Virus record (IMG/VR): IMGVR_UViG_3300034156_000029
Span: 1-44,801 of that record
Source: a virus
Direction: 5' to 3' (one strand)
DNA length: 44,801 nucleotides
The notes beneath the pieces are model-generated. The model was not told the origin of the DNA. It did no database searches and worked only from the letters and a program-made list of their open reading frames with translations. The position numbers and the translations under genes were made by a program. Shown here piece by piece: positions 2,163 through 42,865 of the stretch (positions are counted from its first letter, which is position 1; the number at the start of each line of letters is the position of its first letter).

Positions 2163-4400
2163 CTAAAATAATTCGTTTACTATCCGTTTCCTTTCGGACT
2201 CGGCTTGCTTCAAGTTTTCGACGCCTTGGGTAAAGTACTCCGGTTTCAATTCCCCAATGATCGCCCTGCGGCCGCGTAGGATCGATTGATACCCCTCAGA
2301 GAACACGCCACCAAACGGGGAATAGACCGTTTCTCCTGGATTCGTGTAAAGCCGGACGAGAATGTCGATGACGTCCAGCTGGAGCGGGCATACGTGTCGC
2401 TCGTCGTTTTCATACTTGATCGTGTTGAGGGTGTATGTTTCGCGAACGTGGGAAAGGATTCCTGACGCGATGTCAATCCAATCATCCCGCGTAACCTCGG
2501 AGCCCTCAAAGTCTCCCTTCTTGATAGGCTCTTCCGGTTCTCCCGGCTTGCGAAATATTTCGACGTAATCCAAAAGGGCCGGGCGGCTCCATGATGTATC
2601 CTTTTCAAACTGCGTGAAAGTAAGCCCTTTCGAGTGGGTGCGTATCGACTGCGCTTGCGGGTTTTTAGGGATAACAAATTCCCCGTGATAGACGAAACCG
2701 GCGGCGGAAAAGTTATCGATGATTTGGCCGCGGAAGTCCTTGACGCCGATGTATCCATCCTTTCCAAGAAGTGCAGGGACTTGCATGCAATGGACCGCGC
2801 ACAGACGTCCGCGCTTCAAAACGCGAAGAAGTTCAGGGATGAGAAATTGAAAATGCGTCCAGAATTCGGAGTCATCGGTTGAGTTTCCCATGTCGCGGAT
2901 GGAAGGCGAATACGTGTAGAGTGAAAAGAACGGCGGAGAAAAGATCTGAAAATCGGTTGACTCGTCGGAAAGGGTTTTTATTGTTTCACACGAATCCCCA
3001 AGCATGGCCTTGAACGATTCACCTTCAACTATTTTCATTTCCATTTTGTCGGCGTAATGTACCGTACCCGTTTGGATCTCGTATTTTGTAAAGTCAGACA
3101 TTTCCTTTACTACTGCATCGATCATTTCGGCGTTCTCCTTTTCTTTCCGTAGCACGTTCGACAATATGGATTGTTCGGCGGTTGTTAGGACCAAATAGAC
3201 ATTTACCTGACATGGTTGACCATATCGATATTGTCTTCTAATCAATTGATAGTACATTTCGAAAGAATCGCTTAATCCGATAAATGCCGCATTGTGAGAG
3301 TTTTGAAAATTCATACCATACCCAGCGATACGGCCTTTGGTGTTGAGGATTCTATGCTTACCGTGTTTGAATTCGATCATCGATGACGACTTATATTCTA
3401 TCGAGTCCTCACCTTTTACAGTTACAACATCATTGAAGGCCTTCGCAACGGCTTTTGTTTCGTCGTTTAGGCCGGTCCACATGATCCATTGTGATTGATC
3501 GTTTTCGACATACGGAGCAATGGCCGCTATTTTGTTGTCTATCGTTCGTCGTCGTTCATCTATTCGGCCGGTCAATCCTTTTACTTTGTCTGTTGGGAAT
3601 AGCTCGCCGTTAGGGATGTATTCCGAATCGCAAAATACGGCCTGAATATTCAGCGGCGGAAGTTTGAACCCTTCATCAGAAAAACCAATATCGGATGGCT
3701 TGCGGATAAATACGCACCATGTCGCCATCCACCGATAAAAGTGAGTTTTCGAATGGCCCTTGAGTCTCCACCCTGAACCCTTAGCCGAGTCGTTTACAAA
3801 AAACTTGGATTCCATTTCCTTCGCCGACATGATGCCGAGGAATTCAACCTGGTTTTTCAATTCATCGATATCGTTAGGGCTTGGGGTGGCGGTACATGAA
3901 AGTCGATAGGGGATGTTTTTGAAAAGTTCAAATATCTTCGCCTTTGTTTTACCGTACTCGCCTTTAAGTATCGATGATTCGTCCAGGACGACGGCGCCGA
4001 AGTCATGGCCGGTAAAGTGGTCAAGGCGTTCGTAGTTTGTAATGTACAGGCCGAGCGGGTCCGAACACTCGGCGAATGATTTCGCGTATCTCAGGTCAAC
4101 GCCGATTGACTCAGCCTCTTCTATCGTCTGTTCAGCGACGGAAAGAGGGCAAACTATCAAGCCTTTTATTTTTTTGTGGTCGCGAAGTATTCGAATCCAT
4201 TCTACTTGCTGTTTTGACTTTCCAAGCCCGCAATCTTCGAACAATGCCGCTCGACCCTTTCGGACGGCCCATTTTACGATTGCGCCTTCGTAAGCCCATT
4301 GACCGGTTGTCAAAATGAGGTTGATCTCTGATAGCGGAATATCGAACCCGCAATCGTAATCTATTTCTGTTTTCTTTTTGAGAAAGTCGTCATACTCCAT
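2163..4400 (-). CDS. SNF2-like helicase fused to beta-class DNA methyltransferase
   Basis: A 745-residue fusion. Residues 1-430 hold helicase motifs: Walker A-like FEDCGLGKS (about 55-62), DESS (140-143), the TATP triad (170-173) and a motif VI-like YQLIRRQYRYGQ (about 384-395). Residues 455-745 are a permuted N6-adenine/N4-cytosine methyltransferase with catalytic SPPF (488-491) and a late SAM-binding SPFGGVFSEG. No nuclease domain is visible, so it probably modifies phage DNA rather than restricting host DNA. An intrinsic terminator lies between 4421 and 4451, so I place the start at the ATG at 4400. ATGs at 4409 or 4499 are possible, and the latter would translate through the terminator from the upstream gene. 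Confidence 0.85.
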   Translation of the reverse strand: MEYDDFLKKKTEIDYDCGFDIPLSEINLILTTGQWAYEGAIVKWAVRKGRAALFEDCGLGKSKQQVEWIRILRDHKKIKGLIVCPLSVAEQTIEEAESIGVDLRYAKSFAECSDPLGLYITNYERLDHFTGHDFGAVVLDESSILKGEYGKTKAKIFELFKNIPYRLSCTATPSPNDIDELKNQVEFLGIMSAKEMESKFFVNDSAKGSGWRLKGHSKTHFYRWMATWCVFIRKPSDIGFSDEGFKLPPLNIQAVFCDSEYIPNGELFPTDKVKGLTGRIDERRRTIDNKIAAIAPYVENDQSQWIMWTGLNDETKAVAKAFNDVVTVKGEDSIEYKSSSMIEFKHGKHRILNTKGRIAGYGMNFQNSHNAAFIGLSDSFEMYYQLIRRQYRYGQPCQVNVYLVLTTAEQSILSNVLRKEKENAEMIDAVVKEMSDFTKYEIQTGTVHYADKMEMKIVEGESFKAMLGDSCETIKTLSDESTDFQIFSPPFFSLYTYSPSIRDMGNSTDDSEFWTHFQFLIPELLRVLKRGRLCAVHCMQVPALLGKDGYIGVKDFRGQIIDNFSAAGFVYHGEFVIPKNPQAQSIRTHSKGLTFTQFEKDTSWSRPALLDYVEIFRKPGEPEEPIKKGDFEGSEVTRDDWIDIASGILSHVRETYTLNTIKYENDERHVCPLQLDVIDILVRLYTNPGETVYSPFGGVFSEGYQSILRGRRAIIGELKPEYFTQGVENLKQAESERKRIVNELF

Positions 4401-4411
4401 TCTTTCCATCC

Positions 4412-4451
4412 AATAAAAAAGCCCCGACGCCGTGACGGTGGCAATCGGGGC
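4412..4451 (-). terminator. Intrinsic terminator before the helicase-methyltransferase
   Basis: On the minus strand GCCCCGA and TCGGGGC form a 7-bp GC-rich stem around a 17-base loop, followed directly by TTTTTTATT. It separates the small gene at 4503-4673 from the fusion enzyme. The same reading frame is open through the hairpin from an ATG at 4499, so translation could suppress termination. Confidence 0.8.
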
Positions 4452-4502
4452 AAAGGGTGCGAAATGCGACCCGGAGTCCGTCACTACCCCGGAGCGCATC
4501 TA

Positions 4503-6205: not shown

Positions 6206-6359
6206 TGTTCCCTCCTTGGATAAAAATAGTTCAGTCGGGCACGATGCGCGACTCGCACCCCCGCTGTTCCCCGGCGCCCTTTTCCACACCCATCCCTCAC
6301 ACGTTTTCACGCAGATTAGGCCGCCGGTCAACAAGGACTTTACCCGGCATTTACTGGAC

Positions 6360-6430
6360 TCAGGGCGGAAGGGCTTGAACCTCCGATCGCGGGATCAAAA
6401 CCCGCCGCCTTACCGCTTGGCTACGCCCCG
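6360..6430 (-). tRNA. tRNA-Gln (anticodon TTG)
   Basis: A 71-base cloverleaf. Acceptor CGGGGCG pairs with CGCCCTG (one G-U), the D arm GCC/GGC, the anticodon stem GCGGG/CCCGC around TTTTGAT gives anticodon TTG, and the T arm is GGAGG-TTCAAGC-CCTTC. The discriminator is A; CCA is not encoded. It is the last tRNA of the cluster in transcription order. Confidence 0.9.
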
Positions 6431-6439
6431 AAATAAAAC

Positions 6440-6524
6440 CGGAATGCGCTGGAATCGAACCAGCTCGCCATTGCTGACGGCTTCGGTTTAGCAAACCGAC
6501 CGCTTACCACTCGCGCAGCATTCC
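6440..6524 (-). tRNA. tRNA-Ser (anticodon GCT)
   Basis: An 85-base class II tRNA. Acceptor GGAATGC/GCATTCC, anticodon stem TCGGT/ACCGA around TTGCTAA (anticodon GCT, reading AGC/AGU), and a long variable arm as expected for serine. Discriminator G; no encoded CCA. Confidence 0.92.
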
Positions 6525-6526
6525 AA

Positions 6527-6611
6527 CGGAAGACACAAGAATCGAACTTGCGCACCCTTTCGGATGTCCACCGCTTTCGAGGCGGGAGCCTTTCCACTCG
6601 GCCAATCTTCC
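6527..6611 (-). tRNA. tRNA-Ser (anticodon CGA)
   Basis: An 85-base class II tRNA. Acceptor GGAAGAT/GTCTTCC, anticodon loop CTCGAAA (anticodon CGA, reading UCG), a long variable arm, and T arm GCAAG-TTCGATT-CTTGT. The outermost anticodon-stem pair looks mismatched (C-U). Discriminator G; no encoded CCA. Only two bases separate it from the next tRNA. Confidence 0.9.
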
Positions 6612-6615
6612 AATA

Positions 6616-6700
6616 CGGATGATACAGGAATCGAACCTGTCCGGCGCTTTCGCAACCATGCGCTTTCCAGGCGCACGCAATACCACTCTGCCAACCATCC
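6616..6700 (-). tRNA. tRNA-Ser (anticodon GGA)
   Basis: An 85-base class II tRNA. Acceptor GGATGGT/ATCATCC, anticodon stem TGCGC/GCGCA around CTGGAAA (anticodon GGA, reading UCC/UCU), a long variable arm, and T arm ACAGG-TTCGATT-CCTGT. Discriminator G; no encoded CCA. Confidence 0.92.
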
Positions 6701-6703
6701 AGA

Positions 6704-6786
6704 CGGAAACGATAGGAATTGAACCTACTCCCCTTTCGAGGTCGCCGGGTTTCAAAGCCGGAGCCTTACCGATCGGCCACGTTTCC
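6704..6786 (-). tRNA. tRNA-Ser (anticodon TGA)
   Basis: An 83-base class II tRNA. Acceptor GGAAACG/CGTTTCC, anticodon loop TTTGAAA (anticodon TGA, reading UCA and by wobble UCG), a long variable arm, and T arm GTAGG-TTCAATT-CCTAT. The innermost anticodon-stem pair is C-C. Discriminator G; no encoded CCA. Confidence 0.9.
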
Positions 6787-6790
6787 ATTA

Positions 6791-6874
6791 TGGGCGGCGA
6801 GGGAGTCGAACCCCCTGAGCCGTTAGACGCCTGATTTACAGTCAGGTCCGCTTCCGATTACGGGATACCCGCCC
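6791..6874 (-). tRNA. tRNA-Tyr (anticodon GTA)
   Basis: An 84-base class II tRNA. Acceptor GGGCGGG against GCCGCCC (one mismatch at the inner pair), anticodon stem CCTGA/TCAGG around CTGTAAA (anticodon GTA), a long variable arm, and T arm GGGGG-TTCGACT-CCCTC. Discriminator A; no encoded CCA. It is the first tRNA transcribed. Confidence 0.9.
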
Positions 6875-7248: not shown

Positions 7249-7469
7249 CGAACCCCCTTCAACTTGGCGCAGTGTTCGGCCCAGGATCGATGATTGAATC
7301 CGACCGGTACGCCGACCGTGTTTTTTCGACCGAATGACGCCTTTTGCTTGCGCCGTTCGTGGCGGTTAATCTTGTTCGTTTCGATGATGAAATACGCCTG
7401 CGATACCGCGACCGGGTTCTTAATCCTCGCCGCGTTATTTCGGAAATCCTGTTCCGAATACGTAGCCAT
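7245..7469 (-). CDS. Small basic hypothetical protein
   Basis: A 74-residue protein with a highly basic middle (INRHERRKQKASFGRKN) that could bind nucleic acid. The ATG at 7469 is preferred because AAGGAGG is seven bases upstream, inside the preceding gene; an upstream in-frame ATG at 7496 has weaker support. It ends in a GTGA overlap with the next gene. No family recognised. Confidence 0.65.
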   Translation of the reverse strand: MATYSEQDFRNNAARIKNPVAVSQAYFIIETNKINRHERRKQKASFGRKNTVGVPVGFNHRSWAEHCAKLKGVR

Positions 7470-7582
7470 CAAGTAGCCTCCTTCCTGTTTTTCCACTTAT
7501 CGAAAATGTTAATCCGCACCGCACCGGCGCAGAAAACCGCCATGATTGCCAGTATCGCGAGGTTGATTATCAGGTCGCGCAT
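7469..7582 (-). CDS. 37-residue membrane peptide
   Basis: Residues 4-24 (LIINLAILAIMAVFCAGAV) form one transmembrane helix followed by a short basic tail. AGGGAGG lies four bases before the ATG. The stop shares one base with the start of the next gene. The strong ribosome site and clean topology support a real gene despite its length. It is one of several tiny membrane peptides in the early regions. Confidence 0.55.
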   Translation of the reverse strand: MRDLIINLAILAIMAVFCAGAVRINIFDKWKNRKEAT

Positions 7583-7591
7583 GGGGCCTCC

Positions 7592-7948
7592 CTAGAAAAC
7601 GTGGTTTATGATTTCCTGACGAGCCAAGGAGCGCGCATCTTTGTCGTACTCGGAAACCTTGTTGATTCTCATAATGATTTCTATCATGGAATCCTGAACG
7701 ATTGCCTGGACGCCCTTGGTCACGGATCGCGCCATTTCCTCGGCGAGGTGTTGCGTCAACGTATCGATGTCAATCGACGACGCGGCCTTTACGATCGCCT
7801 CCGTCATGATGGCGGGTATCACTGAATCCGCGATAGCCTTTTCCATGGCCGACCGCATACCGTAGCCCTCGAAAGAGCTTTTGACGCTGGCCGTAGCCTG
7901 TTCGTCAAGCACCTTTTGTAGTTCGGTCTCGTCAATTCGTATTTCCAT
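7592..7948 (-). CDS. Hypothetical helical protein
   Basis: A 118-residue protein predicted to be almost all helix (runs such as TLTQHLAEEMARSVTKG). GAAGGAGGG precedes the ATG. It overlaps the end of the upstream gene by 17 bp, so it is the second gene of the leftward early operon. No catalytic motif or known family is visible. Confidence 0.7.
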   Translation of the reverse strand: MEIRIDETELQKVLDEQATASVKSSFEGYGMRSAMEKAIADSVIPAIMTEAIVKAASSIDIDTLTQHLAEEMARSVTKGVQAIVQDSMIEIIMRINKVSEYDKDARSLARQEIINHVF

Positions 7949-12811: not shown

Positions 12812-14119
12812 TTACGCCGCCTCATAATGACAGAGTTGGAGGTAGAGATGCATCGAAAACGCCGGGCTGTTCGTGTCTTTGGCAACGCGCGGGGTTCCGT
12901 TGGTGCCGTCAGAATACATGGTAGTTGCCATGTTAGCCGGGTTTGTGATTGCAGTTCCAGAGCTTCCGGCTATCCCTGCGGTTAAAGGTCCGTTACCCGA
13001 AGAGTTTACAATTACGCTCCCACTAATAGTTTCGAAGTGCCAATGCCCCTGTCCGAACCCTCTTCTTGCCAGGCCACTGACCATGTACCCGTTATCATCC
13101 CCGGCGCCATGGATCGCGCGGCCCCGGGCGCTAAACACGCGGGCGGTCGTCGTGCTTCCAGCTATGCGGTTCGCGTAGAAATCAACGGAAAACGACCCAG
13201 ACCCGGAAGAGTTCGCATGTGTGAACCCAAACGACACCGTGCGAGACCCGGCGTTTATGTTGGTCAAAAGATAATCGCCGGAAGTTATATCTCCAATAGT
13301 CGACCCCAAAGTAACCGTACGAAGATATGATGCGTATGATGTTTCATCTTCAAGAAGCGCGGAAAGAAAAGCCATGTGCGCCGCGTCATTAGTAAACGTC
13401 AGCGTAGCGACGTTGCTCGATATCGCCCATGCGGTTACTCCGAAGCTCGTCAAAGCCCCTGATAATCCATCTTTGTACGTTACCTTGAGCGAACGTAAGT
13501 AGTCGATTGCGTCTTGCCCCCAGTTGGTCGCCGATATGTCGGTATGCGTGTCGAAGTTGGTCAAACACAGGGCGGGGAAATATGTATCCGGGTCGCCTTC
13601 ATCCCACTCATGAGGCGCTTGATAGTGCATCATAGGGAAAATCATTCCACGCGGGAAACGCTTCTCTATGATTCTTTTATCGTTTGAAGGGGATTCCGCC
13701 ACGGTATCTATGAACCGTACCCAGTAGGTTCCATCATCCCCCACCGGGGTATGGTTTAGGTTTGGCGTTCCATCAGTCCCGTAGGTGGATTGATATATTA
13801 CCCCGTTGACCTGGCAGAATGAAACGAGATTGTAATACTCGGCCGTAGCAATCCACTCCGGTACTCCGTTTTGAAACAGGTATCGGAGCTGCGAGGAAAA
13901 CAGGAAGTAAAGCCCGTTGATGTCTTGAATCCTTGGCGGCTCATTCGCGGAAGCCGTGCCCGCGTAAAGACCTTGAAGGAATGGAGCGAGGCTTTGAATG
14001 GTTTCAAGGTTTTTCGTTGTAGTGGGCGTTCCAAGAGCATCGGAACCAAAAGCCCCAAACTCGCTTGTTCCACCCGTTTCCCCAAAAACCTTCTGATTGA
14101 TCCTACTAAGTTTCGCCAT
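12812..14119 (-). CDS. Tail fibre / collar-type receptor-binding protein
   Basis: A 435-residue protein. The N-terminal 120 residues resemble fibre attachment regions (INGLYFLFSSQLRYLFQNG, VNGVIYQS). The centre is beta-rich with Ser/Thr/Gly repeats. The C-terminus, with RAIHGAGDDNGYMVSGLARRG, GQGHWHFE and a final SPAFSMHLYLQLCHYE, resembles tail-collar or short-fibre tips. The ATG at 14119 is preceded by GGAGGATGGG. It follows the DUF2612/LamG baseplate gene with a 14-bp overlap. It likely contacts the host surface receptor. Confidence 0.8.
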   Translation of the reverse strand: MAKLSRINQKVFGETGGTSEFGAFGSDALGTPTTTKNLETIQSLAPFLQGLYAGTASANEPPRIQDINGLYFLFSSQLRYLFQNGVPEWIATAEYYNLVSFCQVNGVIYQSTYGTDGTPNLNHTPVGDDGTYWVRFIDTVAESPSNDKRIIEKRFPRGMIFPMMHYQAPHEWDEGDPDTYFPALCLTNFDTHTDISATNWGQDAIDYLRSLKVTYKDGLSGALTSFGVTAWAISSNVATLTFTNDAAHMAFLSALLEDETSYASYLRTVTLGSTIGDITSGDYLLTNINAGSRTVSFGFTHANSSGSGSFSVDFYANRIAGSTTTARVFSARGRAIHGAGDDNGYMVSGLARRGFGQGHWHFETISGSVIVNSSGNGPLTAGIAGSSGTAITNPANMATTMYSDGTNGTPRVAKDTNSPAFSMHLYLQLCHYEAA

Positions 14120-35822: not shown

Positions 35823-36164
35823 TTACTCCTTTAAGTCCTTAAAATCCTCTTTAGGGCTGAACCAGTCTTCTTTAACGATGTGCCCGATTGCTTCAACTCC
35901 CGAATGATCGCTTTTTACCCTTATTGTTTTTCCCTTGAGTTGATCCCATTTCCAAACCCCGGCAACTTCCATTACTCGCCATATGAAATGGCCCGCGACG
36001 CCTTCGAGCTTGTGATGCTTAAACGACTTGGGAAGATACAAAGCGTATCCCCCAAACCCTTGACACATTCCGCCGTAATCAAGTATCAGCCATGCGGTAA
36101 GTAATCCGTGGTCATCTGCATCGATCGACGCGCTTTCGATAATTGCATTCCTGATCTCGCTCAT
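35823..36164 (-). CDS. Conserved hypothetical phage protein
   Basis: A 113-residue protein containing [20 protein letters not shown] and [19 protein letters not shown]. This pattern is shared by a small family of uncharacterised phage proteins. GGAGG stands before the ATG. It is immediately downstream of DnaB, so it may serve replication, but no motif shows this. Confidence 0.7.
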
Positions 36165-36209
36165 CTTTTCCTCCTGTAGTCTTCCCCGGTGAACCGGAGT
36201 AATACCCCG

Positions 36210-37553
36210 CTATCGGGTTTCTTCGATCCTTGATTTCGTGTCAACAAACTTCGTCAACCGTGGGTGAAATATCAGATTAGCAACGCCCGTTGGCCCGTTC
36301 CTGTCCTTCGCTACGATCAATTCGGTCGGTATGCCGTCTTTCTCGTATTGGCTCCTTTCCTCCGTGCTCATGTCTTCCAGGCGGTCCCGGTGTATAAACG
36401 CTACCACGTCCGCGTCCTGTTCAAGGCTCCGGGTCTCCGCAAGGCTGTTCAGGGTCGGACGCTTACCCTCGGTGTCTCGAATAAGTTGAGAAAGTACAAC
36501 TATCGGGATGTCCAGCTCTTTCGCGAGCGCCTTGATATTCCGGCTCACCTCGGCGATCTGCTCGTTCCTGGGGATCTTTGCTTGCTCCGCGTCCACAAGT
36601 CCGATGTAGTCGATGAAAATAATCTTACACCCGTCAACCTTCACCATTCGGCGCGCCTTCATTTTCAATTCCGACAACTTTATTGAGCTTGTCTCGTCTA
36701 TGAAAAGCGGTGAATCGGCTACCTCTTGAAGAGCGACGGACAAACGCTCCTTGTCCCGTGTCCCGCGATATACTCCGCACGACACCCCGTAGGTGGAGAA
36801 TCCGGCCATGGTGCACACCATTCTGAAATTGAGTTGCTTTGCGGACATCTCAATCGAAAACATCCCGGTTGGTATTTTCTGCTTCACGGCTAACTCTTCG
36901 ATCATGTTGACCGCCATCGCGGTTTTACCCTGAGACGGTCGAGCGGCGATGATGATGTATTCCCCGTTACGAAATCCGGTTATGTCGTTCAGACTCGGGA
37001 AAGGAGCATCCACTCCACGGATTTTACCGTATGTCTCGATTGCCCAATCAAGCTCTGTGCATACGTCGCCGAGGTATTGAACGGCCTTCTTGTACTCGGT
37101 ACCGCTTGCGGTGAGGGTTACGCTCGATATCTTGCTTTCAATATCCCCCGCAATCTCCGCCCCGGACTCGTCAAACTTACCTACGCGCTCCCTGGCTTCC
37201 TGAGATATAGCCAGCACAAAACGGCGTAGAGCGAAGTCCTTCACGATCCCCACGTAATACGCGACGTTGGCCGATGAAGGTATCGATCCGTTAATCTCCA
37301 CGGCTTCCATCGCGGTATCAGGTTTCCCCTTCGTGCTAAACAGGGTATAGACGGCCTTCATGTCGTGAGGTTTTCCGCTGCGGTGAAGGCTTAGGACTTC
37401 GTTGTAAATGTCTCGGTGACTCTCGCGGGTGAAATACTCCTCTTTCACGTCAACCGCTATTTTCTCGATCGCGGCCGCGTCCATCATCATTGCGGCGAGG
37501 ATGGCCCGCTCTGACTCATGGTCGTAAAGGTTCACGATATTTCCCGCCCGCAT
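36210..37553 (-). CDS. dnaB: Replicative DNA helicase, DnaB-like
   Basis: A 447-residue hexameric helicase. An N-terminal helical domain (YDHESERAILAAMMMDAAAI) is followed by the RecA-like core: Walker A AARPSQGKTAMAVN, CKIIFIDYIGLVDAE (Walker B), PIVVLSQLIRDTEGKRPTL and DADVVAFIHRD. It unwinds the fork and moves on the lagging strand. ATG 37553 overlaps the initiator gene by 22 bp; an ATG at 37592 is an alternative. No phage polymerase is seen, so host DNA polymerase III is probably recruited. Confidence 0.93.
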   Translation of the reverse strand: MRAGNIVNLYDHESERAILAAMMMDAAAIEKIAVDVKEEYFTRESHRDIYNEVLSLHRSGKPHDMKAVYTLFSTKGKPDTAMEAVEINGSIPSSANVAYYVGIVKDFALRRFVLAISQEARERVGKFDESGAEIAGDIESKISSVTLTASGTEYKKAVQYLGDVCTELDWAIETYGKIRGVDAPFPSLNDITGFRNGEYIIIAARPSQGKTAMAVNMIEELAVKQKIPTGMFSIEMSAKQLNFRMVCTMAGFSTYGVSCGVYRGTRDKERLSVALQEVADSPLFIDETSSIKLSELKMKARRMVKVDGCKIIFIDYIGLVDAEQAKIPRNEQIAEVSRNIKALAKELDIPIVVLSQLIRDTEGKRPTLNSLAETRSLEQDADVVAFIHRDRLEDMSTEERSQYEKDGIPTELIVAKDRNGPTGVANLIFHPRLTKFVDTKSRIEETR

Positions 37554-38323
37554 TTCGTACAGAAGCCGCCCGGGTTGAACTCTCCCCCGCATTCACACTT
37601 AGGGCGAGCCTGGAATACGACTTTAGGCGTTCGACCCTCTACGGGCGCGGGTTTCTCGTAGTCAAGATAGTTGTTGAGAAAAGTAGAGGGGTTCTTGATG
37701 AACTGGTATTCCTTACCCGTCTTTCGGATCTCGTCCATATAGTTTTGAAGGCAAGAAAGTATAGAGTCAGCCCCTACCCCTCGCTTCATCATTGCCCCGT
37801 ATGTTTTCTCTGCCTGTCCCTTGGATACTTTTTTAGGGTAGAGTGACCAAAATGATTCAAATGATTCACTATATTTCTTTGGTTTCTCGTCTATATTATC
37901 CTTACCTAACCTTACCTTACCTATACTAACCTGGGTTTCACATTGGGGTACATTTGGTATGACGTTTGGTATACCAAGGGGCGCCATAGTATACGACCCG
38001 TTTTCTTTTACCGTAAGTTGATTCTTCTCCTCAAGATACGCGGTAGGCTTGTATCGATCACTTCGTATGTAGTTGTGAATCTTCCAGTGTTTTATTACGA
38101 CGACGCCACTTTCAAACGGTATCAAAAAACTCTTTGCAAGTAGGATGTTTAGATCATCATTACTTGATCCGACTGTTCTTTGTATCTTTTTTGGGTTGTT
38201 CACGAATCCGTCATCGTCGGCGTTCATATTAAGGTGAAAGTAAAGATTCTGCGATGACTGAGGCATGTCTAGGAAGGCGTCGGACTCGGTTATGGTCTTT
38301 GCAAGCATCCGACGCTCAGCCAT
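37532..38323 (-). CDS. Replication initiator / helicase-loader-like protein
   Basis: A 263-residue protein. Residues 1-90 resemble the N-terminal winged-helix of phage replisome organisers (FLDMPQSSQNLYFHLNMNAD). The middle is a variable linker. The C-terminal half (FESFWSLYPKKVSKGQAEKT, NPSTFLNNY) matches DnaD-like or replication-protein ends, closing with a zinc knuckle CECGG...CTKCG. It precedes dnaB, as in many phages. The ATG at 38323 has AGAGG six bases upstream. The linker DNA holds short repeats that may be the origin. Confidence 0.8.
   Translation of the reverse strand: MAERRMLAKTITESDAFLDMPQSSQNLYFHLNMNADDDGFVNNPKKIQRTVGSSNDDLNILLAKSFLIPFESGVVVIKHWKIHNYIRSDRYKPTAYLEEKNQLTVKENGSYTMAPLGIPNVIPNVPQCETQVSIGKVRLGKDNIDEKPKKYSESFESFWSLYPKKVSKGQAEKTYGAMMKRGVGADSILSCLQNYMDEIRKTGKEYQFIKNPSTFLNNYLDYEKPAPVEGRTPKVVFQARPKCECGGEFNPGGFCTKCGREIS
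37895..37935. other. Candidate replication origin repeats inside the initiator gene
   Basis: The plus strand shows consecutive near-identical pentamers (cttac, ctaac, cttac, cttac, ctata, ctaac) next to an AT-rich stretch. They lie in the linker-coding part of the initiator gene, the place where lambda O and related initiators keep their iterons. The repeats are short, so this is only a candidate. Confidence 0.35.
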
Positions 38324-38495
38324 TTTCAACCTCTTTGTGTATTCTATCTGTCTCTCGTCTTATCATTCTGATTGTCTTGTATATTTCTGTTCTAAAATAT
38401 TCTATCTCTTCGTTGTTAAGATCTCGAAGAAACGATTCGTTGACATCACATCCGCGCATTCCGCTTGTTGCGGATACTTCCCATGCTACAGACAA
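38316..38495 (-). CDS. Small helical protein (TTG start)
   Basis: A 59-residue charged helical protein (NNEEIEYFRTEIYKTIRMIR). It starts at TTG with GGAGG six bases upstream and ends overlapping the initiator start (ATGGCTGA). No ATG is well placed, which is why it is easy to miss. It fills the gap between the nucleotidyltransferase and initiator genes. Function unknown. Confidence 0.6.
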   Translation of the reverse strand: MSVAWEVSATSGMRGCDVNESFLRDLNNEEIEYFRTEIYKTIRMIRRETDRIHKEVENG

Positions 38496-38511
38496 AACAT
38501 ACCTCCAATAC

Positions 38512-38961
38512 TTAAAAGTCCGAAGTTTCGATAAAATCAGCAGGTTTCCGGCCCATTATTTTATCTTTCAATTTGTTATATTCGTTCAGAGTGCCTAATT
38601 CTTTTACGGTTCCCTTGTAAAGACATACTATTCCCATGAATACGGAATACTTTTTAATAGGGTCAACGATTCCGCTATCTTTCAATGTGGAGGTTATTGC
38701 CTTGGTGGCTAAATACCACGGAAGAAACTCATGCGGATGCACTGGAATAAGGTTGATGACTTTAAAGTCATCATCCAGTACATAGTAACCAGAAAAATAA
38801 TCGCTATTTGTTCTATCCCTGCCTGATATCAATTCATTTATTTTTTGAGAGTCATCTATTGAAAATACAATATCAATATCGCTGTCTTCTTTTGCGGTCC
38901 CAAATGCCTGAGAACCGGTCAAGAACCCGACTTCAAGAAGGCTGTCAATAAGTTTGCTCAT
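38512..38961 (-). CDS. Nucleotidyltransferase-like protein (Pol beta superfamily)
   Basis: A 149-residue protein. GSQAFGTAKEDSDIDIVFS is the G-S-x(n)-D-x-D metal-binding motif of MNT-type nucleotidyltransferases; the third acidic residue may lie in FKVINLIPVHPHE. Such enzymes transfer NMP groups to proteins, RNA or small molecules; in toxin-antitoxin systems they AMPylate the toxin. GGAG precedes the ATG, which overlaps a leader ORF as ATGA. The partner is unknown. Confidence 0.8.
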   Translation of the reverse strand: MSKLIDSLLEVGFLTGSQAFGTAKEDSDIDIVFSIDDSQKINELISGRDRTNSDYFSGYYVLDDDFKVINLIPVHPHEFLPWYLATKAITSTLKDSGIVDPIKKYSVFMGIVCLYKGTVKELGTLNEYNKLKDKIMGRKPADFIETSDF

Positions 38962-39047
38962 TCATTTCTCCAAATAAAAAAGCCGCTAACGATCCTCCCC
39001 GCGAGGGTTCGGGCTGGATAGGCCCTAGGATCGTCAACGGCTCTCAT
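38958..39047 (-). CDS. Leader peptide spanning a terminator (putative attenuator)
   Basis: A 29-codon frame (starts MRAVDDPRAYPARTL). GGGAGG lies nine bases before the ATG and could be masked in an AGCC/GGCT hairpin. The whole 16-bp terminator stem and U tract (38971-39042) lie inside it, and its stop overlaps the nucleotidyltransferase ATG as ATGA. Translation would melt the terminator and feed ribosomes to the next gene. The peptide itself is probably not functional. Confidence 0.5.
   Translation of the reverse strand: MRAVDDPRAYPARTLAGRIVSGFFIWRNE
38971..39042 (-). terminator. Long intrinsic terminator before the nucleotidyltransferase
   Basis: On the minus strand AGCCGTTGACGATCCT and AGGATCGTTAGCGGCT form a 16-bp stem (two G-U pairs) followed by TTTTTTATTT; further inner pairing is possible. 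It should stop transcripts arriving from the early operon and from the promoter at 39105-39133 unless suppressed. Confidence 0.85.
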
Positions 39048-39104
39048 ATTTTCCAGCCTCCCGGCTAGCGTGTCAACGGCTCTCGCGGTTCCCTTGACAC
39101 GATA

Positions 39105-39133
39105 ACTATACACCATAACGCCCGCCGCGTCAA
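39105..39133 (-). promoter_or_regulatory. Promoter upstream of the leader-terminator element
   Basis: Minus strand TTGACG (39133-39128), a 17-base spacer and TATAGT (39110-39105). The start site would be about 39098, inside an inverted repeat GTGTCAA...TTGACAC (39070-39100). It would drive the leader peptide and, past the terminator, the nucleotidyltransferase and replication genes. Confidence 0.65.
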
Positions 39134-39360
39134 TCAATTATAGGCGGCGCGGGCTGTTCGTCACCGTCCTCCCTGGGCATCCAATGCGTCACGTCGTCGA
39201 TCAAATATCCCCGCGACCCGATGAAGCAATGACGGCCGAATGTCGTATCTTTCATGCTTTCATACCGGCCGGAGAACACGCCGAGAAAGTCGAAGTAATA
39301 CCATACTTTCGAGTGGTCGTCGGGTACGGTGTCGGTGATACGGTGCCATTGTCGAGTCAT
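39130..39360 (-). CDS. DUF551-like protein
   Basis: A 76-residue protein with the family ends RQWHRITDTVPDDHSKVWYY and DDVTHWMPREDG. It is a second, diverged relative of the protein at 35122-35298, sharing VTHWMP. GGGGGA precedes the ATG. It is the last gene of the long leftward early operon before the promoter-terminator region. Confidence 0.72.
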   Translation of the reverse strand: MTRQWHRITDTVPDDHSKVWYYFDFLGVFSGRYESMKDTTFGRHCFIGSRGYLIDDVTHWMPREDGDEQPAPPIID

Positions 39361-39368
39361 GATTCCCC

Positions 39369-39611
39369 CTAATCAACTATCGCCCCGGACACCTTGGAAC
39401 CCGGCACGAACTGATACCGGCTTGTCCGGTTGCTGATACACCGAAAGATCGCCCCGGATGTGTCGGCGTAACGATGCGCGGCTTTGAGCACAGACGACGG
39501 ATAGACCCTCACACCGGTCTCTCGGCTCACGTGGTCAGTGAGTCCCCAGCCGGAAATGACGCAAGGGCCGAGAGTGTCCAGGTATGCCCAAGTAGCCGCG
39601 CGGATGGTCAT
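39369..39611 (-). CDS. Hypothetical protein, possibly winged-helix
   Basis: An 80-residue protein. The order of helices with SGWGLTDHVSRETGVRVYPS, then a likely wing and the end RYQFVPGSKV, recalls a small winged-helix DNA-binding fold. GGGGGA precedes the ATG. A regulatory role is possible but not shown. Confidence 0.6.
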   Translation of the reverse strand: MTIRAATWAYLDTLGPCVISGWGLTDHVSRETGVRVYPSSVLKAAHRYADTSGAIFRCISNRTSRYQFVPGSKVSGAIVD

Positions 39612-39624
39612 GGGTCCCCCGTGG

Positions 39625-40245
39625 TCATGATTCGCCGAGGATAGCGGCTGCGTTCAGGACGTGGTGATACAGCCTATCGGGTACTGATATTTCTTTGTCA
39701 CAAAGAACATCGGCGTACAGATGATGCAGAGCGGTCCGAACGTCCGCCGCCTTCCGTCGCTCGTCCGCGCGGATGGTGGCGTCATGGTCAGCGATCACGC
39801 CCAACCACGCCTCTACTTCCAGAACTCGGCGCTTTCGATATAGCTCAAGCTGCTCGTTGGTAAGGTTTTCTTTTTTCAAGCCGATGGCTCGCAGAGACGC
39901 CACCTCCAACGCATCGCATAGCCTATGCGCTATCTCCCTATCCGACGATTCCGGCTGCGGGGCGGTGGAGGCCGACTCATACGTTTTAGCAAATATATCG
40001 GGCTTACACGGGTAGAACTCTCCATTGACTCCTTTTATGATGTAGTCGCTGACGGCCGCTATTAAGGGCCCTTCAAGAGTAAAAATCTTGAGTCCATCCT
40101 TTTTTACAACTTGCTCGTATTCCTCCCATGTCCATTTCTCGGCTGATGAGTTTAGACCGGTAAAGTCTATTACTTCCCGCAGGTTACTTCCGGTCCATTC
40201 GACCGCCTCAATTACTACCGGCTTCTTCCTGTACTTCTGGTTCAT
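39625..40245 (-). CDS. Conserved phage protein with C-terminal extension
   Basis: A 206-residue protein. The first 95 residues (NQKYRKKPVVIEAVEWTG and VSDYIIKGVNGEFYPCKPDI) match a very common small phage protein that usually ends near residue 95. The second half is an unrelated helical extension (NLTNEQLELYRKRRVLEVEA), so this is a fusion. AAGGAG precedes the ATG. Function of the common domain is unknown. Confidence 0.75.
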   Translation of the reverse strand: MNQKYRKKPVVIEAVEWTGSNLREVIDFTGLNSSAEKWTWEEYEQVVKKDGLKIFTLEGPLIAAVSDYIIKGVNGEFYPCKPDIFAKTYESASTAPQPESSDREIAHRLCDALEVASLRAIGLKKENLTNEQLELYRKRRVLEVEAWLGVIADHDATIRADERRKAADVRTALHHLYADVLCDKEISVPDRLYHHVLNAAAILGES

Positions 40246-40640
40246 ACCTTCTCCTTGAGGGCGGCGACGATGAGGTCGAAGGCATGATTAGCGTGTATGG
40301 CTTTTCCGGAGTCATGATCGCCATGACATGCCATCGTAAGGTACACGCCCACCAGCCCAATCGCCTTCGCCACCTCGGCGCTCATGGGGCGGGAGGGGCG
40401 GCTGTTAGCCCACGTAACGCCAGCAATCCAGAATATCGACGCGAGTACATGGTGTTCCGGCTTCCCTTCCGGGTACATACCATTCATGAACTCGTCACAC
40501 GCTTCGTTGCACTCGTCCGCGTCTTGAGCGGCGGGGCGGGGATTCCATAAGTCACACCCTTCGCCAGGTATGGACTTTCGAAGGTCGCAGCACGTCGTAT
40601 CTCCGCACGTCTCGCACGTCCTTTCCGTCGGCGCGCTCAC
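40242..40640 (-). CDS. Hypothetical protein, paralogue of 5526-6011 (GTG start)
   Basis: A 132-residue protein. It has an N-terminal cysteine cluster (CETCGDTTCC) that may bind zinc, then RPAAQDADEC, RPMSAEVAKAI and AFDLIVAALKEKV, all shared with the product at 5526-6011. GTG start makes a GTGA overlap. The two copies lie at opposite ends of the early operon and may be a duplication whose centre has diverged. Confidence 0.72.
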   Translation of the reverse strand: MSAPTERTCETCGDTTCCDLRKSIPGEGCDLWNPRPAAQDADECNEACDEFMNGMYPEGKPEHHVLASIFWIAGVTWANSRPSRPMSAEVAKAIGLVGVYLTMACHGDHDSGKAIHANHAFDLIVAALKEKV

Positions 40641-40906
40641 CGGATGACCTCTCCTACTTTGTGATCGGGGCGCGGATCTTTTCGGGACTCCATTCGAGCA
40701 GCATAATTTGCAGTAACCAACCGAATCGCTGCCTTTCTTGATAGGCCCCAGTGTCCGGTATTTCGATACCGAATAGCCCGAACAAGCTCAGAAGCATCCA
40801 TTATCTTCTCACGATTGTCTGGGTTAGGCGTCGTCGCATGGCTCTTCCCGTCGCATTTGTCACCGCAGGCTAAGCCGGTGCAGTGGTCGCATTTTGTGTC
40901 GATCAT
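40637..40906 (-). CDS. Small cysteine-rich hypothetical protein
   Basis: An 89-residue protein. The N-terminus has CDHCTGLACGDKCDG, a likely zinc site; the rest is a basic helical region (LVRAIRYRNTGHWGLSRKAA). GGGGG precedes the ATG. It overlaps both neighbours by 4 bp. Function unknown. Confidence 0.65.
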   Translation of the reverse strand: MIDTKCDHCTGLACGDKCDGKSHATTPNPDNREKIMDASELVRAIRYRNTGHWGLSRKAAIRLVTANYAARMESRKDPRPDHKVGEVIR

Positions 40907-41076
40907 CGTTTACCCCCTAGTTTATGTCCCTCGCCTATGACTCCGTTAACCTTGCATTCCTTCACGCCGTTTTGTCTAAACTGTGATTTACCCCACGGGC
41001 ACGGGTAAGGCATTGTGCAACGTGATCCGCGATAGTAGAGGCATATACCGCTATCGACGTAATGAGGTTTGCTCAT
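40903..41076 (-). CDS. Small cysteine-rich hypothetical protein
   Basis: A 57-residue protein with four cysteines (Cys12, Cys20, Cys25, Cys39) spaced as a possible zinc knuckle. ATGA overlaps at both ends tie it to its neighbours. It has fewer than 60 codons and is easily missed. No family recognised. Confidence 0.6.
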   Translation of the reverse strand: MSKPHYVDSGICLYYRGSRCTMPYPCPWGKSQFRQNGVKECKVNGVIGEGHKLGGKR

Positions 41077-41597
41077 AGTTTCGGCTCCCTGGCGTTTATA
41101 ATGCGAAAAGCGTAAGCCCTGGTTTTTGCGTACCTTGGCAACGTAAAAACCTCACCAGATAAAACTTTGCTTTTACCAGCATTATACGCACATGCGGCCC
41201 GATACCACGTGCCTAGTAAATTGTGAAGGTCGGCAATATACCTCAATCCAAGTTTAGCCGAATGAATCGGATTTAATGGATCGAATATTTCCATTTCTCC
41301 GCGACCATACCAATACACTGCAAGAAGCCATTCTATATTTTCGGGTTTCATATATGGCTGATAAAGTCCGACACTAGGCCATCCTCCCGGCTCGTTTTTA
41401 TTGATTGCCGAAGCATCGCCACGCTCACCGGTAAACCGATTCCCCGACTCTTCAACTTGTAGCCAATAGGCAACGGATCGCGGGACACCTTCCCGGTCGG
41501 CGATGTGCATCACGTCGCGGAAAGTGGAGTCGTCAATCGGTTCGGCGGAAAGGGTTGAAGCTATGAATAATAGGATCGGTGCTATTATTCGTTTCAT
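41073..41597 (-). CDS. Secreted lytic transglycosylase-like protein
   Basis: A 174-residue protein. Residues 1-18 are a signal peptide (KRIIAPILLFIASTLSAE). The rest shows SLT-type lysozyme motifs: catalytic Glu in WLQVEESGNRF, SVGLYQPY and WYRAACAYNAGKSKV. It should reach the periplasm without a holin and cut glycan strands. It lies in the early operon, far from the lysis cassette, so it probably aids entry, superinfection control or envelope remodelling rather than lysis. Confidence 0.82.
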   Translation of the reverse strand: MKRIIAPILLFIASTLSAEPIDDSTFRDVMHIADREGVPRSVAYWLQVEESGNRFTGERGDASAINKNEPGGWPSVGLYQPYMKPENIEWLLAVYWYGRGEMEIFDPLNPIHSAKLGLRYIADLHNLLGTWYRAACAYNAGKSKVLSGEVFTLPRYAKTRAYAFRIINAREPKL

Positions 41598-41944
41598 TCT
41601 GCGTCTTCCTCCCTTAGAGCATCAATCGCGTATTGCGGGACTTGATATCCAAGGCCCCGTAATTCTTCGAGCCTGTCCGCGCATTCTCCTGCCGTTTCGT
41701 CGTTGAATTGTTCTCCGTCGTGAGGGAGCCCAATAGGAACCAACTTTGCACGGTCAAGTATTTTGTTGACTTTCTTGTATCGTTTTAGATACGCCTTGCA
41801 GTCGGACATATCGACCGGCGGCGGTAGCGGCTTCTTGAGAATATGGCGCATACCCGCAACGTGTGTTGTATAGCCCCCGTTGCAATCCACATAAACGTAC
41901 ACATCGCATTGAAAATCGTCAGAACTCCACCGGCAATAACTCAT
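41594..41944 (-). CDS. Conserved hypothetical phage protein
   Basis: A 116-residue protein starting MSYCRWSSDDFQCDVYVYVD, a beginning I recognise from a widespread family of small uncharacterised phage proteins. GGAGG lies 11 bases before the ATG, just after a GC-rich hairpin (41961-41983). It overlaps the transglycosylase by 4 bp. Function unknown. Confidence 0.75.
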   Translation of the reverse strand: MSYCRWSSDDFQCDVYVYVDCNGGYTTHVAGMRHILKKPLPPPVDMSDCKAYLKRYKKVNKILDRAKLVPIGLPHDGEQFNDETAGECADRLEELRGLGYQVPQYAIDALREEDAE

Positions 41945-41960
41945 GTTTGATTTACCTCCG

Positions 41961-41983
41961 GCCGGGAGTTGTCGGCCCCCGGC
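41961..41983 (-). other. GC-rich hairpin between DUF1351 and the next gene
   Basis: GCCGGG and CCCGGC (minus strand) can pair around GGCCGACAACT. No U tract follows, so it is not a standard terminator. It stands directly before the Shine-Dalgarno sequence of the downstream gene and may affect its translation or RNA stability. Confidence 0.45.
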
Positions 41984-41992
41984 TATCGTTGA

Positions 41993-42865
41993 TTATATCT
42001 TATCGTATTCGATGCCGTTGTCCGTCATGTACTGACGGAGGGAAATGAGTTGCGCCCGCGTTCCCCTGAATCTGAGCGTGTACTCGATGACCGGGTCAGC
42101 GTCGATTTCCAGTGCTTCAGCGGCAGCGGCGGCGATGGGTTCGGCCTTCGCTTCCTTAACCGCGTCAACCGCAAGCTCTTCCGCCTGGGCCTCGATGTGC
42201 TCCCCGTGCTCCCGTTCAGCTCGGTTTTTCTCTTCCTCTTCCAGGCGCGCCCGGTTTTCTCGGAGGCGTTTCGCCGTGGCGAGCGCGGCCCCGATGTCCA
42301 AAGTGTCCAGGTATTGCGCTTTCGTTTCGATGACGTCGGCGGGAAGGTCTTCAATGATTTGGATCTCGGCGTAAATCTTTTTGATCTTCGCCGTAAGCTC
42401 CGCGTCAACGTCTTTCATCGACGTGCCCTTGTTTAGCCATTTCTGATCGAAGAGACGGTCAAGGTTGACGAGGTTGAAAGACTTCGTTGCGAAGAGGCCT
42501 TCAATGTCTCGGCGCTTCTCGGCCTTTTGAGTCTCTACCACGGCGTCCCACACCTCGCCGAGCTTGTCCGCCCCGGACGTGAGCATATCCGTTGCCCGTT
42601 TGATAGCGGCCTTAACCTGTTCGAAAGGCGACATGAACTCGCGTTCTAGGGCAAGGCGTCGGCTATTCAAGTCCTTCGCTGCGGAGTTCAAAACGGCACG
42701 ATCTTTCTTGGCCTGTTCGGGATCGTCGAAATACTTTTCGGGCGTAAAGTCCTTGATACGCTCGGCAACAAAAGCCTCAATCTTGAGGGCGTTCGTGATA
42801 AGCTCGCCGGGTACTTGTTTCTCTACGGTGAGAGTAAGGTCCTTTACCTCAATTCCTGCGTTCAT
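41993..42865 (-). CDS. DUF1351-like phage protein
   Basis: A 290-residue helical protein. The segment LNSAAKDLNSRRLALEREFM followed by a basic amphipathic helix and a long Glu/Lys/Arg coiled coil (residues 190-245), then a C-terminal IEYTLRFRGTRAQLISLRQY, is typical of DUF1351. These proteins sit next to SSB and recombination genes in many phages. The function is uncertain; a recombination or DNA-binding accessory role is inferred. Confidence 0.8.
   Translation of the reverse strand: MNAGIEVKDLTLTVEKQVPGELITNALKIEAFVAERIKDFTPEKYFDDPEQAKKDRAVLNSAAKDLNSRRLALEREFMSPFEQVKAAIKRATDMLTSGADKLGEVWDAVVETQKAEKRRDIEGLFATKSFNLVNLDRLFDQKWLNKGTSMKDVDAELTAKIKKIYAEIQIIEDLPADVIETKAQYLDTLDIGAALATAKRLRENRARLEEEEKNRAEREHGEHIEAQAEELAVDAVKEAKAEPIAAAAAEALEIDADPVIEYTLRFRGTRAQLISLRQYMTDNGIEYDKI

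Follow-up and report, generated by a model that had tools for sequence, protein, structure and literature searches.

What kind of switch stands in front of the replication genes of this phage, and does it work through a translated leader peptide or through RNA? The locus lies in IMGVR_UViG_3300034156_000029, a 44.8-kb virus record that was analysed over its whole length (44,801 nucleotides, here called the window). The two contig ends (1-655 and 44147-44801) share a repeat of 655 bp, with one mismatch, and the record is therefore probably a complete genome, circular or terminally redundant, of about 44.1 kb. The leader cassette and the genes behind it lie on the minus strand, in the order nucleotidyltransferase (NTase), DnaD-like loader and DnaB. 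The original prediction described the leader as attenuator-like, and an intrinsic-terminator leader does precede this replication operon; it also held that translation of a leader peptide works the switch. Our analysis indicates that on/off control is probably exerted by RNA rather than by a translated leader peptide. Its parts, and the genes that follow, are these:

39105-39133, minus strand: promoter P1, TTGACG (39133-39128), 17-nt spacer, TATAGT (39110-39105); sigma-70-type, 10 of 12 matches
39070-39100, minus strand: hp1, GTGTCAAGGGAACCGCGAGAGCCGTTGACAC (predicted fold)
39048-39076, minus strand: promoter P2 inside the leader, TTGACA (39076-39071), 17-nt spacer, GAAAAT (39053-39048); sigma-70-like motif
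39053-39068, minus strand: hp2, CTAGCCGGGAGGCTGG, within the P2 spacer (predicted fold)
38976-39047, minus strand: Y-shaped intrinsic terminator, identical with the predicted P2 small RNA (from fold and complementarity); 5' arm 39047-39027, 3' arm from 38996, U-run 38981-38976
39026-39011, minus strand: terminator arm 1 (Y1), AGGGCCTATCCAGCCC, with TCCAGCC at 39018-39012; followed by GAA at 39010-39008
39007-38997, minus strand: terminator arm 2 (Y2), CCCTCGCGGGG, with CTCGCGG at 39005-38999
38958-39047, minus strand: 29-codon open reading frame, MRAVDDPRAYPARTLAGRIVSGFFIWRNE, ATG at 39047, TGA at 38960-38958; functional peptide improbable
38512-38961, minus strand: small NTase, 149 aa, first gene after the cassette (Pfam NTP_transf_2, E 2e-5)
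37532-38329, minus strand: DnaD-like helicase loader (PHROG 8489, E 1.2e-76)
36210-37592, minus strand: DnaB-like replicative helicase (Pfam DnaB_C, E 2.8e-72)

Upstream of the replication genes lies a gene for a transglycosylase SLT domain protein (41073-41597, minus strand). Elsewhere, also on the minus strand, the genome encodes a 778-aa protein in which an SNF2-type helicase part precedes an N6/N4 DNA methyltransferase part (2163-4499), and holds a match to HTH_3 of the Cro/CI type (961-1101). Six tRNA genes stand in a row at 6359-6873 (minus strand), for Gln(TTG), Ser(GCT), Ser(CGA), Ser(GGA), Ser(TGA) and Tyr(GTA). Four tRNA-Ser genes with different anticodons are unusual in a single phage, and perhaps counter host cleavage or modification of tRNA-Ser.

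The TTGACG-17-TATAGT promoter named in the original prediction is present as P1, with a predicted start at about 39100-39098, and the inverted repeat said to follow it is found in hp1 and hp2. An imperfect G+C-rich inverted repeat (39123-39153; CCCGCGCCGC / GCGGCGGGCG) lies across the -35 of P1 and may be an operator, or else mark where the upstream operon ends; near it is a further promoter-like site, GTGACG-16-TATAAT, at 39164-39137. Two features had been overlooked, namely promoter P2, whose predicted start is at about 39042-39041, and a pair of nested loop complementarities. The terminator stem comprises 15 pairs (up to about 22 with an AU/GU extension) and carries a 30-nt two-armed apex, which makes the terminator, given as 16 bp in the original prediction, Y-shaped rather than a plain hairpin; a simple terminator scan, with loops of up to 8, overlooks it. 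The predicted fold of the 150-nt leader has an energy of -67.9 kcal/mol (z = -6.06), and none of 200 shuffled sequences was as stable.

Perfect complementary stretches of at least 6 nt occur in the window leader only in the terminator core, in the hp1 stem and in two nested loop matches. One joins the hp1 loop segment CCGCGAG (39088-39082) to CTCGCGG of terminator arm 2, the other joins GGCTGGA of the hp2 region (39058-39052) to TCCAGCC of arm 1. The GGGAGG at 39062-39057, which had been placed in a hairpin loop as a masked ribosome site, is indeed predicted to span the hp2 loop and to reach into the first part of its 3' arm; what all six elements described below conserve in this loop is its complementarity to arm 1.

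Relatives of the locus show that leader and gene are exchanged separately. Contig L003 (IMG/VR 3300020045_004589) retains the promoter region and has an NTase with 96% identity, while the leader between them is unrelated sequence. Conversely, L084 (3300037424_000518) carries a leader nearly identical to that of the window, with three substitutions as judged by eye, and the gene behind it encodes not the NTase but a 204-aa protein with a KilAC antirepressor domain. With the leader swapped and the gene kept in one relative, and the gene swapped and the leader kept in the other, the leader is a module independent of both the peptide and the downstream gene. The NTase itself had relatives in only two IMG/VR contigs at the sensitivity used and no homologues among the cultured phages searched; the relative in L002 stands in another gene context, with no RNA cassette in front.

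These comparisons bear directly on the leader peptide. The 29-codon frame of the window spans the whole terminator as claimed, has the GGGAGG 9 nt upstream and overlaps the NTase start codon as ATGA, all of which would suit an attenuator in which translation opens the terminator and couples to the NTase. One of the three substitutions in L084, however, turns its ATG into ACG, and a frame of at least 10 codons (from ATG, GTG or TTG) through the terminator is absent from four of the six elements (L003, L99a, L99b and L109). In L004 the frame ends before the downstream gene, and most downstream genes are preceded, behind the U-run, by their own Shine-Dalgarno-like sequence (GGAG at 38971-38968 for the NTase). 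The proposed check on conservation of the leader frame thus went against it, a frame with its start codon not being conserved among the elements; the predicted P2 transcripts, moreover, begin downstream of the ATG. We accordingly consider a translated switch extremely improbable, and found no indication that the leader senses ribosome or tRNA status, as had been suggested.

L003 has the same two nested matches as the window despite the lack of leader sequence similarity. A nested score as high was reached by 67 of 20000 shuffled sequences for the window and by 18 of 20000 for L003. Searching further contigs for Y-shaped terminators with nested loop matches yielded four more cases, which gives six independent elements on four contigs; a fifth contig, L084, carries the window leader in nearly identical form. 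The L004 contig (3300025018_000306) holds two elements, one before a DnaD-like gene and one after DnaB. The L002 contig (3300025000_000039) likewise holds two, the first upstream of a small frame with replication genes behind it, the second before a 210-aa gene ahead of terminase genes. Elements L99a and L99b denote plus-strand positions 7399-7650 and 12147-12400 of L099, and L109 denotes 13278-13532, flanks included. Those named L004, L99a and L109 are related to each other, having part of the terminator stem in common (ATGAATCC) with different loops. All six share P1, hp1, hp2 and a long Y-shaped terminator, with loops that differ between versions, and the genes behind them vary from the NTase (window and L003) to DnaD or unidentified genes, with the antirepressor in L084 only. 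What is conserved is the RNA architecture, kept with different letters.

If the loops pair, hairpin and terminator arm should match best within the same element. Alignment of the arms with MAFFT was too poor for a useful covariance model. RNAduplex energies were blurred by the G+C-rich stems, for which reason perfect loop matches were used instead. The longest perfect match was tabulated for each P2 spacer against each Y1 loop; the diagonal of this 6x6 matrix reads 5, 6, 7, 8, 6 and 6, with an off-diagonal mean of 3.1, and the true assignment is the best of all 720 permutations. For the region upstream of the P2 -35 against the Y2 loops, the true assignment is within the best 2 of 720. The wrong pairings (upstream region with Y1, spacer with Y2) gave no signal, at 496 and 616 of 720. 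The hp1-Y2 match of L99b is weak, at 4 bp, and that of L109 gains from G-U pairs, which make up part of it. The complementarity thus covaries across elements, with each hairpin following its own arm.

The same regularity extends to the promoters. P1, with its 17-nt spacer, stands at the same place in all six elements. So does P2, which invariably has an exact 17-bp spacer containing hp2, a -35 that coincides with the 3' side of hp1 or directly follows it, and a predicted start at the 5' arm of the terminator, in most cases AGAGC. In 312 kb of strand such tandem promoters occur eight times, against 0.8 expected, and six of the eight are these elements. A composite scorer combining tandem 17-bp promoters, Y terminator and nested loop match gave the elements scores of at least 31, compared with at most 28 in 1.87 Mb of shuffled DNA and at most 26 in 252 kb from six cultured phages (of Hujiaoplasma, Thermoanaerobacterium, Lactobacillus, Paenibacillus, Bacillus and Listeria), among which it found no element; having been shaped on the first examples, it is a specificity check and not an independent test of discovery.

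A reading in which the unit is a structure of single-stranded DNA (an origin, packaging or recombination site) that resembles a promoter-terminator unit by chance would account for its place beside replication genes and for its exchange by recombination. It sits badly with U-runs on one strand only, with tandem sigma-70 motifs, with a position always right before a gene start and with the presence of copies at two different genes in one phage, and we hold it to be very unlikely.

We favour instead, with about even confidence, a same-strand RNA attenuator in which the Y RNA and the P1 leader would pair loop to loop and so set read-through. P1 would give a leader with hp1, hp2 and the Y-shaped terminator, while P2 would give the Y only, as a hairpin RNA of about 65-70 nt lacking hp1 and hp2. 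In all six elements the 5' part is predicted to fold into hp1 and hp2, and the Y alone is predicted to fold at -37 to -45 kcal/mol (-40.1 in the window). When the terminator 3' arm is left out, as a model of the nascent RNA, hp1 pairs with Y2 at a probability of 0.73-1.0 in four of the six elements; in the window hp1 itself is favoured, the hp1-Y2 probability being 0.01, though a start two bases further on raises it to 0.67. Once the 3' arm is included, the terminator wins in every element. These folds suggest a kinetic switch. On a P1 transcript, the early hp1 and hp2 would pair in cis with Y2 and Y1 before the 3' arm exists, which would delay termination and let transcription run on into the NTase-DnaD-DnaB operon. 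Once terminated, Y RNA made from either P2 or P1 would act in trans by binding hp1 and hp2 of the nascent leader, freeing the leader's own Y and restoring termination. The replication genes would in this way be self-repressed in a dose-dependent and sequence-specific manner. We infer from these patterns that P1 and P2 are both active, that loop pairing takes place in cells and that the effect has this direction; the model draws on a small phage group, with six elements and predicted transcripts, and we put its chances as high as those of its failing.

The covariation is equally expected if hp1 and hp2 meet Y1 and Y2 within a single transcript and there set termination efficiency, or if a protein of the phage or its host reads the compact fold, P2 then being an extra promoter with no RNA acting in trans. 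The nascent cis pairing predicted in four elements would fit such a switch too. It leaves unexplained why the second promoter always starts exactly at the Y, giving a free Y RNA, and why whole loop sets are exchanged between near relatives. We regard a cis-only control as a possible, distinctly less probable account than the attenuator with a trans-acting Y RNA.

Among known systems, the attenuator may be compared most closely with the immunity system of satellite phage P4, in which CI RNA, a small RNA derived from the untranslated leader of the phage's replication operon, pairs with same-strand segments of that leader (seqA, seqB and seqC) and causes premature termination (as summarised in PMC4825925). 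Here too, at the level of sequence, a predicted small RNA is complementary to parts of its own leader on the same strand. The P4 RNA is made by processing, whereas the present RNA would be delimited by an internal promoter and an intrinsic terminator, P2 suggesting an origin other than processing. The present cassette further differs in having two loop pairs, with hairpins as both partners, in a Y-shaped terminator; by analogy, P4 is nevertheless its nearest working counterpart.

In the IsrK/orf45/anrP system of Gifsy-1, IsrK activates via translation of orf45 (PMC4825925). The cassette resembles it in combining a promoter, a short RNA with an intrinsic terminator and read-through into an operon, the AUGA frame overlap being confined to the window; it differs in having two promoters instead of one and an upstream frame that is unconserved. 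The Y RNA could by this precedent be an activator, its pairing with hp1 and hp2 refolding the read-through RNA and raising downstream expression, much as IsrK, a short terminated RNA that shares its promoter with the antirepressor operon, raises antirepressor expression in trans (PMC4825925). The antirepressor gene behind the same leader in L084 is in keeping with this idea. IsrK, however, acts through orf45, and a conserved upstream frame coupled to the gene was not found among the six elements; activation in trans therefore seems to us unlikely.

The C4 antisense RNA of P1 and P7 is a short RNA lying ahead of an antirepressor gene; two of its segments are complementary to two others further along the same transcript. 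Two complementary segments on one transcript recur here, and an antirepressor (KilAC) gene in L084 only, but the targets lie in the terminator and there is a second promoter. No relevant Rfam family, C4 (RF01695) included, was recovered at gathering or relaxed thresholds. In ColE1 (RNA I/II), pT181 and pIP501, plasmid copy number is controlled by antisense RNAs through loop-loop pairing or RNA-switched termination. Their regulator comes from the opposite strand, whereas both partners here are on the same strand; a scan of 36000-42000 with the sigma-70 consensus only gave no plus-strand promoter match, and hence no antisense promoter of the pT181/pIP501 type. The cassette is not assigned to the P4, C4 or IsrK class, the latter two failing on the features tested.

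A type III toxin-antitoxin system (ToxIN-like) was considered for a 13-nt direct repeat in the window leader and dropped, since the repeat has only two copies and is not retained in L003; the downstream genes are NTP_transf_2, ANT or DnaD and not a ToxN-like toxin. Comparison of the leader and two sister elements with cultured phages by DNA similarity gave nothing meaningful. A pattern scan of viral contigs added one copy of the L99a type (L126), and its matches beyond this and the known elements look like coding coincidences. In the genome contigs no TerL relative was found, and the sole pattern match, in a Verrucomicrobia MAG, has neither promoters nor terminator and was taken as chance.

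We tentatively propose, at somewhat less than even confidence, that the leader encodes its own same-strand repressor RNA, the Y RNA of an internal promoter whose two loops must match two leader hairpins, and that this would be an undescribed phage RNA family. With similar caution, loop pairs may be exchanged between close relatives as specificity types, and a single phage can house two copies whose loops differ. Such a system could time replication, or govern superinfection immunity, with no need of a protein repressor; a Phage_integrase domain found no match in the window or its sister contigs (five contigs in all, some of them fragments), which is why immunity is put forward only as a possibility.

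If this reading is right, replication genes would be controlled by a self-encoded RNA lock and key within about 150 bp, a distinct and easily tested addition to the few RNA-based phage controls represented by P4 CI, P1/P7 C4 and IsrK. The loop pairs look orthogonal, and might offer compact natural orthogonal attenuators. More broadly, a hypervariable RNA that forms no family at the level of sequence may be recognisable by its pattern of pairing.
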